Positions 27,509 through 33,981 of a stretch of DNA of 64,000 bases are shown piece after piece. A program made the translations under genes and the position numbers. How positions within the stretch are numbered: the first letter of the stretch is position 1; each line of letters begins with the position of its first letter. This DNA comes from Hyphomonadaceae bacterium JAD_PAG50586_4. Its GTDB lineage: Bacteria > Pseudomonadota > Alphaproteobacteria > Caulobacterales > Aquidulcibacteraceae. The notes under the pieces are model-generated. The model saw nothing but the letters and a program-made list of their open reading frames with translations, did not search any database and was not told where the DNA came from. The DNA lies in the NCBI GenBank assembly GCA_023242925.1, contig CP096134.1, positions 2,933,501 to 2,997,500 on the forward strand, given 5' to 3'.

Positions 27509-28201
27509 CTACTTTGCGGCTTCGCTCAACTCTTCGCGGATCATCGCGTAAGCGGCATTGATCGCGGCCGTTTTCTCACGCGCGATCTGCACGAACTCGG
27601 GCGGCGCGCCGCGTTGCGTCATCCGGTCGGGATGGTTCTCCGCGGCCGCGCGACGCCACGCATGACGCACCTCATCCATCGTCGCGCCTGGGAGCAAGCC
27701 CAGGATCGCGTAAGGATCGCCCGCTTCGGGGCCGAGATTGGTCGCCTTGATGCGGCGGAATTCCATTTCGCTGAAGCCAAAATGGTTGGCGACCTCAGCG
27801 AGGTAATCGATCTCGTTTTGCGTCACGATCCCATCGGCCGCGGCGATATGGAAAAGCCCGTCGAGCACGTCTTCCAGCAGGCACGGCCGCGCCCGGTATT
27901 TGCGTCCGATCTGTTTGGCGTAGGAATCAAATCCTAAGACAGTTTGGTTGGCGATTTGGAAGGCGCGACGGAATGCGGCCTCCTCGCCCGGCGGCGGGCG
28001 AAACACCTCGGCGGCGGCGAACATCTCCGCCTCCTCGGCTTTGCCGTCCACCTTGGCCATCTTGGCCGCCAGCCCGATCACAGCTGCGGTAAAGCCCACG
28101 TCGTTCGGACGCGGCGCACATTCCTCCGCGAATTCAGGCGGATCGGCTTCCGGATCGAAAGCGCGCGCGGCCATTTCCACGATGTTGGACCATACGGACA
28201 T
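27509..28201 (-). CDS. TerB/DnaJ-domain (DjlA-like) co-chaperone
   Basis: 230 residues from ATG 28199-28201. The N-terminal half (about 30-150) is a TerB-like helical domain (GLAAKMAKVDGKAEEAEM, HIAAADGIVTQNEIDYL), the C-terminal quarter a J domain (YAILGLLPGATMDEVRHAWR, HPD in ENHPDRM). The layout matches DjlA without its N-terminal TM helix, so it should be cytosolic; it would stimulate DnaK ATPase. The frame stays open 96 codons upstream with no family signal. It converges on the chemoreceptor, 4 bp apart. Confidence 0.9.
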   Translation of the reverse strand: MSVWSNIVEMAARAFDPEADPPEFAEECAPRPNDVGFTAAVIGLAAKMAKVDGKAEEAEMFAAAEVFRPPPGEEAAFRRAFQIANQTVLGFDSYAKQIGRKYRARPCLLEDVLDGLFHIAAADGIVTQNEIDYLAEVANHFGFSEMEFRRIKATNLGPEAGDPYAILGLLPGATMDEVRHAWRRAAAENHPDRMTQRGAPPEFVQIAREKTAAINAAYAMIREELSEAAK

Positions 28202-28325
28202 GCCGCCATTATCGCCGCTCAGACCGCTTCGCGCAAAGCCCCGGCTGTCGATAATGAGCGCGGCTCCGTCGCACTTGCGATCAAGCTCGCGTGAAACCGT
28301 CCCCGGTGCGCGGCGTTGAATGGGG

Positions 28326-28874
28326 ATGAAACACCAATCCGCTCTCCGCGCCGTGTTGCTGGCCAGCGTGCTGGCGTTTGCGCCGGCCGCAATCGCCCAA
28401 ACCGGCGAACGCTTCCTCGTTGCTGAGGTGGTAAATCCCAACCCACAAGGCGACGTGCTCGAAGTCGCCGCCGCCACCGGCCAGTTCACCCGCTTCCTCG
28501 AAGCCGTGGAAGCCGCAGGCTACCAGGAGACGCTGCGCGGCGAGGGCCCCTTTACAATCTTCGCGCCCACAGACGACGCCTTCGCGCGAATGGATCGGCG
28601 CGAAGTGAACCGCCTAATGGACCCGCGCAATCGCGAAGAATTGTTGGCGCTGCTCGCCTATCACGTCGTGCCCGAACGCGTGACCACCGAAAGTATGGGC
28701 GGTCGCAGCGCACGCCTCGAAGCTTCAAACGGCTATCGGGTGACACTCGACGCCAGCGACGGCCTGCGCATCAACGACCAGCTCGTTGTCATGCAAGACA
28801 TCGAAGCCTCCAACGGCGTGATCCAAGGCATCAATACGGTGCTCGCGCCGCCCAGCCTTGTCGCCAGCCGTTAG
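28326..28874 (+). CDS. Secreted fasciclin (FAS1) domain protein
   Basis: 182 residues: signal peptide (MKHQSALRAVLLASVLAFA, cleavage after AIAQ near residue 24) then a single FAS1 domain. Hallmarks are FTRFLEAVEAAGYQETL, the H1 motif GPFTIFAPTDDAFARM, LLALLAYHVVPERV, and the H2-like VIQGINTVLAPP. FAS1 proteins mediate adhesion or surface interactions. ATG 28320 is an alternative start two codons earlier. Its stop overlaps that of the convergent glutaminase gene by 4 bp. Confidence 0.9.
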   Translation: MKHQSALRAVLLASVLAFAPAAIAQTGERFLVAEVVNPNPQGDVLEVAAATGQFTRFLEAVEAAGYQETLRGEGPFTIFAPTDDAFARMDRREVNRLMDPRNREELLALLAYHVVPERVTTESMGGRSARLEASNGYRVTLDASDGLRINDQLVVMQDIEASNGVIQGINTVLAPPSLVASR

Positions 28875-30673
28875 TTGCCAAGCGACCTGATTTCGTTGTT
28901 CGCAGCACGCAAGCGTTCAGCGAAATCTCGGCTGAGATTGGCGAAGATCGTCAGCAACAACCTCGGATGCGTTTCCGAGAGCGCCATCATCTCCTCGATC
29001 GAAAACCCGTAAGCGATCACACGGCCATCGGCGATCACATCGGCCGAGCGCGGGCTGCCGTCGAGCAACGCCATCTCACCGACGCACCCGCCCGCGCCGA
29101 TCGTCGCCACGCGCACCGTACGCGCGCCGGCCAAGTTGAGCTGCACGCTCGCCGCCCCTTGCGCGATCACAAAGAACAAACGCCCCACTTCGCCCTCGCG
29201 CACCAAATGCTGGCCCGCTTCGAACGAGAAGGGCTTTGCCAACCGCTCCAGCGCTTGCAGATCGCCCGCGCTCGACCCCGCGAACAAATCAATACTCTTC
29301 AACGACAAGCGCGAGGCGCCAGTATGCGCGCCATCCGTCGCAATCAGCGCGTTCTCGCAATATTCCAGCGCCGCATCGCGATCCGCAAACAACGTGTTCG
29401 GCGCAGCCATCGAAGACAGCGCCTCGCGCAATGGATCGCGCGCGTTTGCAAAGATGAGCGCGCCCTTTCGCGACGCAGCGTACGTCCGCGCCAGCATCGT
29501 GCAGGCGGCGAGATCAATGTCGTACACGCGCCGCATATCGACGACGAGCCAATCCACCTGCGGCAACACCTCGTCGATCCGCCGCACCAAACGCTCAGCC
29601 GCGCCAAAGAACAACGCGCCTTGCGCTTCTAGCAAACCAATCCGCGCGCCCTCGCGCGCCAACACCTCGCGCTCCGAGGCCGTCCGCGCACGCTTGGAGC
29701 GCACCGAAAGCGCACTCGCTTCGCCGCGGATGGCGGCACTACTTTGCGGCGCGCTCCGGAAAGCGTGCAGTCCGAAATCGGCAACTATGCGTTTGCAGGC
29801 CGCAATCGCGCGTATGGAATTGCCGAAGCGATCGAGCGGCGGCGAGTACGCCGAAATCCCAATCTGCCCCGGCACGATCGCCGCGATCGAACCTGACACG
29901 CCGCTCTTGGCCGGAATGCCAACCTCGTACGACCACTGCCCGGCGTAATTATACATCCCGCACGAATGCATCACTGTCAGCACGTCGTGCACATATTCCG
30001 CCGCCAGCGCGCGTTGGCCCGTGAGCGGATTGATCCCGCCGTTCGCCAACGTCGCCGCCATCGCCGCCAGATCGCGCACGCTGACCAGCACCGAGCATTG
30101 GCTGAAATAGAGATCGAGAATTTGATCCGCGTCGCCGGAGATCATCTCCGCTTGACTCATGATCGACGCGATCACGCGATTGCGCGCGCCCGTATCGCGC
30201 TCCGAACGAAACACCGCTTCGTCAAACTTCAGTTTGCGCCCCGCAAAGCGCGACAACAGATCGAGCACGCTTTGGCGCCGCGCCGCATAGCTCTCGCCCT
30301 TCACCAGCGCCGTCACCGCGATCGCGCCCGCATTCACCATCGGATTGAACGGGCGATTGTTCACCTCATCCATCACCGTCGAATTGAATGCATCTCCCGT
30401 CGGCTCGACGCCGACATGCTTCAGCACCGTCTCACGCCCGTACTCTTGCAACGCCAGCCCGTACAAAAATGGCTTCGACACCGATTGAATCGTGAATGGC
30501 AAATCCGCGTCGCCGACAGCATACGTCTTTCCATCGAGCGCGGTGATCGCGATCGCCAAGCTCGCAGGATTGGCTTTCGCCAGCTCCGGAATATAGGTCG
30601 CGACCTCGCCACCCTCGATCTGGCGGACATCGTTCAGCAAATCATTGAGATACGCGCGGATCGGGCTGGCCAT
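28871..30673 (-). CDS. glsA: Glutaminase fused to STAS and cyclic-nucleotide-binding domains
   Basis: 600 residues. Residues 1-310 are a serine-type glutaminase (beta-lactamase fold): active-site SVSKPF near 64, NPMVNAGAI, YNYAGQWSYEVGIPAKSGVSGS. Residues about 335-440 look like a STAS domain (VDWLVVDMRRVYDIDLAACTML). Residues about 455-590 are a cNMP-binding domain (FSFEAGQHLVREGEVGRLFFVI, GGCVGEMALLDGSPRSADVIA). A standard bacterial glutaminase is only about 310 residues, so this is a three-domain fusion; it converts Gln to Glu plus ammonia. Regulation by a cyclic nucleotide is inference. Confidence 0.93.
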   Translation of the reverse strand: MASPIRAYLNDLLNDVRQIEGGEVATYIPELAKANPASLAIAITALDGKTYAVGDADLPFTIQSVSKPFLYGLALQEYGRETVLKHVGVEPTGDAFNSTVMDEVNNRPFNPMVNAGAIAVTALVKGESYAARRQSVLDLLSRFAGRKLKFDEAVFRSERDTGARNRVIASIMSQAEMISGDADQILDLYFSQCSVLVSVRDLAAMAATLANGGINPLTGQRALAAEYVHDVLTVMHSCGMYNYAGQWSYEVGIPAKSGVSGSIAAIVPGQIGISAYSPPLDRFGNSIRAIAACKRIVADFGLHAFRSAPQSSAAIRGEASALSVRSKRARTASEREVLAREGARIGLLEAQGALFFGAAERLVRRIDEVLPQVDWLVVDMRRVYDIDLAACTMLARTYAASRKGALIFANARDPLREALSSMAAPNTLFADRDAALEYCENALIATDGAHTGASRLSLKSIDLFAGSSAGDLQALERLAKPFSFEAGQHLVREGEVGRLFFVIAQGAASVQLNLAGARTVRVATIGAGGCVGEMALLDGSPRSADVIADGRVIAYGFSIEEMMALSETHPRLLLTIFANLSRDFAERLRAANNEIRSLGN

Positions 30674-30822: not shown

Positions 30823-31737
30823 TTACGTCGCGGGCGGTCCGCGCAACGCGGCCACCTCAGCCCGCAACGCCCGCACCTCCTCCAGGATGCGCTGCTGCAC
30901 GACCGCGGCGTCCTCCTGTGCGGTCGCGATCTCGCCGACCTCTTCCTGCACTTCTTCGATCTCGTCCTTGATCTCTTCCTGCGGCGCTTGCTGAACAGCT
31001 TCGACGATCACACCGACGAAGAGATTCAAGACGGCGAACGCGGCGATCACCGTGAAGCTCATCACGAAGAACCACGCGAACGGATAATTCGGCTGCAACC
31101 GCGCGATCGTGTCGCCCCACCCGTCAAACTGCGACAGCGCAAACAGCGACAGCGCGCTCTCGCCAAGATCGCGGAAGCCGTCTTCGTTGTGGAAGAGCGT
31201 CGTCGCCATCACGGCGCCGATATAGAAAACGATCGAAAGGATCGCGAACGTCGCCAGGATGCCAGGCATCGCGCTGAACAACGCTTCCACCACGCGCCGC
31301 ATTTGCGGCACTGCGCTGATCAAGCGGAAAACTCGCACCACGCGCAACGTCCGCAGCGCAGAGATCGCCGGGTTCACCGCAATGTAGCTGAGCCCGACAA
31401 CGATCATGTCGAACCAATTCCATCCGCTCGCGAAATAGCGCCGCGGACCCGTCGCGAAAAATTCGAGCACGAGTTCGGCGGTGAATATCCAGAGGAAGTA
31501 CATATTCCACAGCTCAATTTGAGCGTGGTACGGATTGGTTTCGCCGTAATGTGCGTCGTAGCCCAGGATCGCCGCGTTCGCGACGATGCAGAGCAATATG
31601 AAAATATCCCAGACGGGATTTTTCGTTAGCCAACGGAACAGCGGAATGCCGCCGCGATCCTTACGCTTGGCCTTCTTGCGCGCTGGCGCTGCTGCGCTTG
31701 TGGGTGCGCCTTCTGCGCTTACGGTCGCGTCCGTCAT
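30823..31737 (-). CDS. Voltage-gated cation channel (NaChBac/CavMr type, one-domain)
   Basis: 304 residues: a basic N-terminus, six TM helices, then a coiled-coil tail (about 250-300, EEIKDEIEEVQEEVGEI). S4 reads LRTLRVVRVFRL with regularly spaced Arg, so it is voltage sensing. The pore loop is LFALSQFDGWGDTIARL; by alignment with NavAb (TLESWS) the selectivity filter is QFDGWGD. It has Asp in place of the ring Glu, Gly next to it and a second Asp four residues on, resembling Ca-selective CavAb (TLDDWSD) and CavMr (TLEGWVD). Ca selectivity is inferred. It forms tetramers in known relatives. Confidence 0.88.
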   Translation of the reverse strand: MTDATVSAEGAPTSAAAPARKKAKRKDRGGIPLFRWLTKNPVWDIFILLCIVANAAILGYDAHYGETNPYHAQIELWNMYFLWIFTAELVLEFFATGPRRYFASGWNWFDMIVVGLSYIAVNPAISALRTLRVVRVFRLISAVPQMRRVVEALFSAMPGILATFAILSIVFYIGAVMATTLFHNEDGFRDLGESALSLFALSQFDGWGDTIARLQPNYPFAWFFVMSFTVIAAFAVLNLFVGVIVEAVQQAPQEEIKDEIEEVQEEVGEIATAQEDAAVVQQRILEEVRALRAEVAALRGPPAT

Positions 31738-32254: not shown

Positions 32255-32497
32255 ATGACCGAACTTACACGCGGCGAACGCCTTCAAATCACGCTCTCCG
32301 AGGAAGAGCTCCGTGCGCTGGACGATTGGCGTTTCGCCAAGCGTATGCCCAGCCGGGCCTCAGCCGTGCGCGAGCTGCTGCGACGCGGGCTGGCCGGTGA
32401 AGGATTTGATCTGGCGCACAATGGGCAAAAATCCGTCAGCTTCGGCGTGACCGAGCACACGAACGGATCGATGAAAGACGGCGAGTCCGGCGCTTAG
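32255..32497 (+). CDS. Ribbon-helix-helix DNA-binding protein
   Basis: 80 residues from ATG 32255 (AGGA a few bases upstream; an in-frame start 8 codons earlier is less likely). The N-terminal 45 residues fit a CopG/Arc fold: strand RLQITLSEEELRALDDWR, then helix 2 RASAVRELLRRGL. The C-terminus is polar. RHH proteins dimerise and bind short operator repeats. It stands alone, without a toxin partner. Its stop overlaps the convergent CHAP gene by 4 bp. Confidence 0.8.
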   Translation: MTELTRGERLQITLSEEELRALDDWRFAKRMPSRASAVRELLRRGLAGEGFDLAHNGQKSVSFGVTEHTNGSMKDGESGA

Positions 32498-33175
32498 CCG
32501 ACGGGAACGGCCGCTTCGTTGGCATTGGCCGACGCTTGCTCAAGCGCGGCCACATCCGCCTCGGCTTGAGCCTCAGCCGTCAGCACATTGAGGATGAAGC
32601 CCTGCACGTTGTAGCGGCGCACGCCCCACTGACGGGTGGGGATATTCCACACCTGGACTTCGCTCCAATCGCCGGCTTCCGACACATCGCGGATCGGAAC
32701 GTCGCGGGTGATCTCGCCAGCGTTCAGCCAATTGGCGTGATCGACGATGATCATGCGCGACGAGACGACTTCCGTCACAACGGCGACGTGGCCGCGCGCC
32801 GTGGTGTTGTAACCTTCAAGCACCAGCACAGCGCGCTCTTGGGGCGCTTGCGTGGTTTCAAAGCGGCCAGAGGCTTGGCGCCACCACGTGTTGGCGTTGC
32901 CATAAATCTCAACACCGGATCTCGTTGCGCGCGAACGGCACGCATTGCAGGCGCGCACGACGGTTGGTGACGCGCGCCACCGGCTCATATGCTTCGTCAG
33001 GCGCACGCTCAAACGCGACCGGCGCGAGCATGGCGTGTTCAGACGGCCCCTCGGCGACGCTCGGGTCGATGGCGAGATCCATCGACAACGGCGTCAGCGC
33101 GTTTGCTTCGGTCGGTGCGGCCGCGAGGCCGGCGATCGCTGCAGCAGCGAAGAGAAGCGCTTTCGTATCCAGCAT
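32494..33175 (-). CDS. Secreted CHAP-domain amidase-like protein (split by one frameshift), copy 1
   Basis: The signal peptide starts at ATG 33173-33175 (MLDTKALLFAAAAIAGLAA). The CHAP core begins RLQCVPFAR (catalytic Cys) and continues in another frame as SGVEIYGNANTWW, then GHVAVVTEV (catalytic His) and HANWLNAGEI. One extra base within GGATCTC (about 32920) accounts for the break; removing it gives FARNESGVEIYG, matching copy 2 (FARRESGVEIYG), and 226 residues. CHAP enzymes cleave peptide cross-links or stems in peptidoglycan. The Ala/Glu-rich C-terminal tail is unique to this copy. Confidence 0.8.
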
Positions 33176-33394: not shown

Positions 33395-33981
33395 TTAGCC
33401 GCGCAGCTCCGCCATCAGCGTGAACGGGTGAATGAAGCCCTCGGCGACGTAAACCCGTCCGCCCCAATGATTTCCTGGGATGTGCCAGACGCGCACCTGG
33501 CTCCAATCATTGTTAGGCGAGACATCGATCACCGGTACGCCAACGCTGATCTCGCCGTTATTCAGCCAATTGGCCTGATCGACGCGAATGATCCGGCTGG
33601 ATTCCACGTGCGTGACCACGGCGACATGGCCGCGCGTAGTGGTGTTAAAGCCCCGCGTCACCAAAACAGCGCCCGGCGCGGGGAGTTTGAGCGCGGATAG
33701 CGCCCGGCCGCCTGATGCCACCAGGTATTGGCGTCGCCATAAATCTCCACGCCCGATTCCCGGCGCGCGAACGGCACGCATTGCAGGCGGGCGCGGGCAT
33801 CGGCGATCCGAGGCGGCGAATCCGGGTCAACCGGCGGGTGCGGGAGGCCCGCGATATTGCCATGCCGCCCCAGCGCGCCCGAGCTGATCGGGGCGGGGGT
33901 CGAGGCGCAGGCAGTCAAAACCGCCGCCATCAGTCCAAGCGCCAGCGCCCGGGCTGTCCGGTGTGTCCATAGAATCGACAT
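33395..33981 (-). CDS. CHAP-domain lipoprotein (split by one frameshift), copy 2
   Basis: Paralogue of the previous gene, 220 bp upstream of it in the same direction. From ATG 33979-33981 it has a lipobox (LTAC near residue 25), CHAP core RLQCVPFARRESGVEIYG with catalytic Cys, and GHVAVVTHV with catalytic His. The frame breaks after AAGRYPRS; adding one base to the TTT run at 33686-33688 gives RSKLPAPGAVLV and a 195-residue protein. Probably a peptidoglycan hydrolase anchored to the outer or inner membrane; the break is likely a sequencing error. Confidence 0.8.

Follow-up and report, generated by a model that had tools for sequence, protein, structure and literature searches.

A bacterial voltage-gated cation channel with the filter QFDGWGD, a plausible calcium-type filter with glutamine at position 1

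We analysed a 64,000-nucleotide stretch (the window) of the genome of Hyphomonadaceae bacterium JAD_PAG50586_4 (contig CP096134.1, positions 2,933,501 to 2,997,500), and found that it encodes a BacNav-superfamily channel of the NavAb/NaChBac kind, whose selectivity filter reads QFDGWGD instead of the canonical NavAb-like TLESWxx. From the analysis of its filter and relatives, we estimate at roughly 0.55 the probability that the channel is Ca-permeable and prefers Ca over Na. The channel is of a known kind. Judged by sequence, the new element is Gln at filter position 1, which does look new; Phe at position 2 and Gly at position 4 are already known or common.

The channel gene (Table 1) runs from ATG through stop, encodes 304 aa and has AGGGG six bases upstream of the ATG. 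The Pfam model Ion_trans (PF00520) matched residues 41-251 at 1.6e-47, and an NCBIfam search of the channel gave one match, below the cut-off and not to a channel model. Pfam, the structure model and its fold matches agree on a single 6TM Ion_trans domain with a P1-filter-P2 pore. R129, R132, R135 and R138, together with E88 and D110, were invariant in an alignment of seven sequences, two of them remote channels. We take the arginines to mark S4 and the acidic residues to be counter-charges in S2/S3, as family knowledge suggests. The predicted C-terminal helix may be a coiled-coil tetramerisation tail, as in BacNav structures. The host genome (4.18 Mb, one contig) contains one match to the channel protein. 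An Ion_trans search of this genome revealed two further proteins, one with a potassium-type filter (L002, TVGYGD) and one weak match (L003, 33 bits).

Table 1. Coordinates of the channel gene, its features and its conserved neighbours within the window
Feature	Position	Strand	Basis
Voltage-gated cation channel ORF, one domain, 6TM, Ion_trans	30823..31737	minus	ORF list, Pfam, orthologues, purifying selection
S4 core, residues 128-139, R129/R132/R135/R138 at every third residue	31321..31356	minus	Invariant in 7 aligned sequences
Selectivity filter QFDGWGD, residues 203-209	31111..31131	minus	Residue numbers; phmmer register against 6juh; conservation
S6 inner helix, about residues 221-240, with conserved N238, then G242	31018..31077	minus	Invariant columns; model helix from 221
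Predicted C-terminal acidic helix, about residues 245-300	30838..31005	minus	Model helix, part at pLDDT <50
CHAP-domain gene, conserved neighbour	32494..33012	minus	Pfam; neighbourhood comparison
Second CHAP-domain gene, conserved neighbour	33395..33781	minus	Pfam 27 bits, cut-off 26; neighbourhood comparison
TerB-DnaJ gene, conserved neighbour on the opposite side of the channel	27509..28294	minus	Pfam; neighbourhood comparison

A structure model built from the seven sequences had a mean pLDDT of 66.7 and a low pTM of 0.37, with pLDDT blocks of 81-90 over residues 171-230. A single-sequence prediction was poor (pLDDT 50.8) and was discarded. In the model, the pore consists of a P1 helix (191-202), the filter turn, a P2 helix (207-214) and S6 from residue 221. 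Its top fold matches were CavAb, NavAb and NavMs; the best Foldseek match was 5klb (E 1.2e-11), and the VIA fold match 6mvy had a Z of 15.8 and an rmsd of 5.7 over 220. The CatSpermasome chain 7eeb_C (Z 15.7) was level with these matches, on fold only. The rmsd of the model to its fold matches is large, which, with the low pTM, counts against the explanation that we favour.

To place the filter, we aligned the channel with 6juh, a CavAb-type NavAb mutant with the filter TLDDWSN. The phmmer alignment was ungapped within the filter, and its sole gap fell after the IAR/IVR stretch of P2, where the channel is one residue shorter. In this register Gln203-Phe204-Asp205-Gly206-Trp207-Gly208-Asp209 correspond to NavAb positions 175-181 (TLESWSM). 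A sequence search of the PDB with the pore region ranked CavAb/NavAb entries first. The phmmer alignment and the structure model ruled out a filter elsewhere in the protein. MAFFT offered an alternative with a gap between G208 and D209, and treated the TFEDWTD and TLEGWPD rows likewise; within the register, position 7 with its Asp is therefore the least secure. The residue aligned with a NavAb position that we take to be Gln172 is Ala in 22 of the 26 orthologues with Gln at position 1 (Q-type).

These 26 distinct Q-type proteins comprise the set from the window's genus and those of G011, G012 and G024. Their filters were QFDGWGD (18), QFDGWGE (7) and QYDGWGE (1), so that positions 1, 3, 4, 5 and 6 (residues 203, 205, 206, 207 and 208) are invariant. 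The original prediction had described a bacterial voltage-gated channel in NavAb-type register, with Asp in the high-field-strength site followed by Gly, and a further Asp on the outer side. Our data bear this out: D205 and G206 are present in 26/26, and residue 209 is acidic in all (D in 18, E in 8), position 7 being the less firm part. Its comparison with CavMr (TLEGWVD; PMC7041947) was also sound, with Gly4 and the acid at 7 both matching the published filter.

A family search covered 60 genomes, the window's own included, and gave a match in 45. Within the window's genus, 25/30 genomes had a match, the five others being 57-83% complete, and 23/30 had an intact Q filter. dN was well below dS in each of 11 pairs compared (for the window's channel and L011, 0.113 and 0.682), indicating purifying selection. 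Orthologues, invariant filter positions and purifying selection show that the window's ORF is neither a chance reading frame nor a pseudogene. A contig scan with the window's protein found 6 loci, 2 remote and 4 close, the close ones in three MAGs labelled Hyphomonadaceae and one labelled Alphaproteobacteria. A plasmid search returned 39 records, all below 60% identity, 17 of them from Leisingera.

Two genomes of the same genus carry other forms. In G053 the channel (L037) has the filter LFDDWGN and 55% identity, with the same CHAP and TerB-DnaJ neighbours; since it lies outside the Q clade, replacement or fast change is possible. In G050 the gene is broken into pieces (L108, G050:C21:18500-20500). 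One piece matches query residues 8-109 and contains a TAA, the other matches residues 156-256 with the filter QFDNWGE, and the S4-bearing stretch is unmatched.

We also examined the gene neighbourhood. Across loci L011-L039 (flanks of about 1.5 kb), CHAP relatives adjoin the channel in 25/29 and TerB-DnaJ is found in 20/29. The sister forms L036 and L037 have neighbours in common with the Q clade. In the window, the channel is adjoined by a gene (28871-30673, minus) encoding a 600-aa fusion of glutaminase, STAS and cyclic-nucleotide-binding domains. We rejected it as a partner: among loci L011-L039 it adjoins the channel in 1/29 (L011) and did not appear in the remaining 28 (L012-L039, same flanks), nor beside the channel in any of L004-L007.

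Wider searches placed the filter among its relatives. Matches were found in 155 of 249 genomes of the order, 114 of 385 of the class and 175 of 398 of the phylum, many of the last being weak. We read 172 distinct proteins, a set that covers part of the order and phylum matches and excludes the fragment L108_7 for its length. The census of the class Alphaproteobacteria comprised 120 loci and 125 rows, with four weak matches left out (E >1e-4: G385, G300, G309, G581:C13). It represents genomes matching this channel query, so other channel types are under-represented, and its rows include one gap row and some filters of another type, such as TTVGYG in L244. The 125 rows had TLESWS in 69, TLSSWE in 8, Gly4 with an acid at position 3 in 27 and Thr1 in 112, and Gln1 occurred solely in the window's own channel. 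Thus Gly4 is common in these bacteria (27/125), and Gln1 is not.

Other filters deserve mention. TLSSWE, presumably the NavRh type, occurs in L222, L223, L226, L227, L229, L231, L232 and L233, with the acid shifted from position 3 to 6. Position 1 is also other than Thr in L047 and L138 (family f121; IMDGWA(E/D)) and in L224 and L225 (IYDDYG/VYDDYG), which are also without the filter Trp. Four genomes of the phylum have adjacent pairs of channel genes with the filters TTEGWP(T/S) and T(M/S)EGWPD (L077, L084, L091, L158). Such pairs with different filters might form mixed tetramers.

The two changes at the filter entry that the original prediction held to be new fared differently. Phe at position 2 is known in some BacNav and AnclNav channels (PMC10349818), and TFEDWTD was present in 10/172 of our rows, so that part is withdrawn. 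The change from Thr to Gln at position 1 appears new so far, being confined to this clade among the rows examined. A text search of 5.39 million PMC papers, whose scope took in neither figures nor supplements nor most subscription papers, gave no match for filter strings with Gln at position 1, and the shorter string DGWGD occurred there solely in two works unrelated by title.

To trace the origin of the filter, we built a tree of 60 rows hand-picked from the 172, with the filter columns removed and the root placed by choice on AnclNav-like rows. These stand-ins were seven rows (six TFEDWTD, one TLESWTS) judged AnclNav-like by filter, and they stay apart from the Q clade in the tree rooted on them. 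The eight sampled Q rows end a ladder of LFDDWGA, LFDDWGN, LFDNWGD, LFDDWGN and TLDGWGD, with bootstrap values of 95-100 and SH-aLRT of 90-97 along the ladder and 82/14 at the Q node. The ladder and members of the order with TLESWSM, TLEGWAM, TMDGWR and TGDGWS form a 27-row clade (99/97; sister node 92/83), which contains four TLESWSM rows. In a 128-row tree, from which 44/66 TLESWSM rows had been thinned beforehand, the 26 Q and 4 LF rows form one clade (support 99), and the Q rows alone require two changes. NavAb was placed from a 131-residue pore piece only, in a weak pore tree (50/66 rows thinned) that warned of long branches.

These trees suggest that the Q clade is likely, though not proven, to be sister to alphaproteobacterial channels of its own order, canonical TLESWSM included. 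It is likewise likely to be independent of the CavMr line; this is not proven because a constraint that unites the Q, LF and TLDGWGD rows with the AnclNav-like rows costs only 7.2 log units, with a p-AU of 0.074. A single clade of the TLESWSM rows (n=17) was rejected (p-AU 2.65e-05), which implies repeated switching between canonical and other filters. Filter position 4 requires 11 changes on the 60-row tree and 20 on the 128-row tree.

The protein would assemble as a homotetrameric, voltage-gated cation channel, in which depolarisation would shift the four-arginine S4 and the S6 gate would open. The carbonyls of positions 1 and 2 are reported to line the inner end of the filter as two rings (PMC3320569), and the conserved tryptophans of such channels have also been described (PMC4436565). 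A Gln203 ring would take the place of the customary Thr at this inner end and probably alters the shape of the inner ion site.

Several observations argue for a preference for Ca. In CavMr and NavPp, Ca selectivity is reported to hinge on Gly4 (PMC7041947), and the acid at position 7 is found in CavMr and CavAb, as in our channel. The Ca-permeable CatSper shares D3-G4-W5-x-D7 in CatSper3 (TVDGWTD) and CatSper4 (TQDGWVD) (PMC7041947), and Gly next to the ring residue is held to mark Ca-selective channels among those with one domain (PMC10120453). In the phmmer register our channel has Asp where NavAb has Met181, and NavAb M181A mutants are reported to have lost selectivity among cations, showing a Ca selectivity of about 10-fold (PMC12919392). 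At position 4 the sister orthologues carry Asp or Asn (LFDDWGN/A, LFDNWGD), which brings them close to the CavAb filter TLDDWSD.

Other results weigh against it. NavAb S178G (TLEGWSM) is reported to have a PCa/PNa <0.05 and to have turned Li-preferring, Na/Li-selective (PMC12919392). CavMr has Glu3 and also requires Val6, where our channel has Asp and Gly, and NavPp, with one Asp more than CavMr in its filter, yet passes Na better than Ca (PMC7041947). CavMr is moreover probably a doubtful guide, because in the tree our clade falls among channels of the same order, some with TLESWSM, and apart from the AnclNav-like rows (p-AU for joining these 0.074). NaChBac given the filter TLDSWGS, with Asp3 and Gly6, became non-selective (PMC4225499). 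The original prediction of a Ca-type filter thus stands in part: Ca selectivity is plausible, but the NavAb S178G and NaChBac results indicate that the motif does not imply it.

The same NaChBac mutant, as non-selective as NsvBa, and the non-selective NavAb M181A raise the possibility, which we hold to be rather unlikely, of a non-selective voltage-gated channel passing Na, K and Ca like NsvBa. However, NsvBa has Ser at positions 4 and 7, where our channel has Gly and Asp, and Gly4 conferred divalent preference on CavMr and NavPp (PMC7041947). We consider it improbable that the channel is Na-selective and blocked by external Ca. NavPp sets the precedent, since its filter is acid-rich and it conducts Na but is subject to inhibition by Ca (PMC7041947), and in NavAb a Gln at the neighbouring position 2 retained Ca and gave a Ca block of the pore through its side chain (PMC10349818); however, NavPp became divalent-selective when its Asp4 was changed to Gly (PMC7041947), and Phe at position 2 (L176F) is reported to give no Ca block in NavAb (PMC10349818). 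A selectivity that known filters cannot predict, for example of Li type or ruled by the channel's own inactivation, is very improbable: Gln for Thr in no row outside the Q clade, the frequent Ala noted above and the Li preference of NavAb S178G (PMC12919392) point that way, but purifying selection and the invariant gating charges favour ordinary conduction.

If the channel does prefer Ca, it may represent an independent natural route to Ca selectivity on a NavAb-like scaffold, in which an inner ring of four Gln would help to hold a divalent ion. We regard this as speculative and somewhat doubtful. The tree ladder suggests that, within one family, the filter began with a Thr-Leu entry, passed to Leu-Phe-Asp-Asp/Asn and ended as Gln-Phe-Asp-Gly. 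The published evidence on Gly4 conflicts, since it is required for Ca selectivity in CavMr, yet NavAb carrying it stays sodium/lithium-selective (PMC7041947, PMC12919392). Related channels of one family that vary naturally at positions 1, 2, 4 and 7 offer a natural test of the choice between Ca and Na. Few native bacterial Ca channels have been characterised, as the original prediction noted, and CavMr has been called the sole identified prokaryotic Cav (PMC12919392). Since canonical and other filters have switched repeatedly, the characterised examples may understate how common Ca-type filters are in bacteria.

Among known systems, CavMr of Meiothermus ruber (TLEGWVD; PMC7041947) is alike in being one-domain and in having Gly4, Trp5, Asp7 and eight filter carboxylates per tetramer. 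Our channel differs from it in Asp3 instead of Glu, Gly6 instead of Val and Gln-Phe instead of Thr-Leu at positions 1-2. CavMr, compared here by its published filter, is an AnclNav, whereas the Q clade groups with its own order. NavAb/NavMs and the engineered CavAb (TLDDWSD) are the top matches in fold and, for the pore, in sequence, with a mean pore identity of 41% between the 26 Q-type rows and the NavAb-derived 6juh. Compared with NavAb TLESWSM, our filter differs at positions 1, 2, 3, 4, 6 and 7, and the protein is one residue shorter in or after P2. NsvBa (TLDSWGS; PMC4225499) shares Asp3 and Gly6 and is unlike our channel in its Ser at 4 and 7, its Thr-Leu at 1-2 and its reported non-selectivity. 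CatSper3/4 (PMC7041947) share D3-G4-W5-x-D7 but have Thr1 and belong to a eukaryotic channel built from four distinct subunits. The nearest relatives outside the Q clade are the sister channels with LFDDWGN/A and LFDNWGD (L036, L037, L038, L040), which differ from it in Leu at position 1 and Asp or Asn at position 4.
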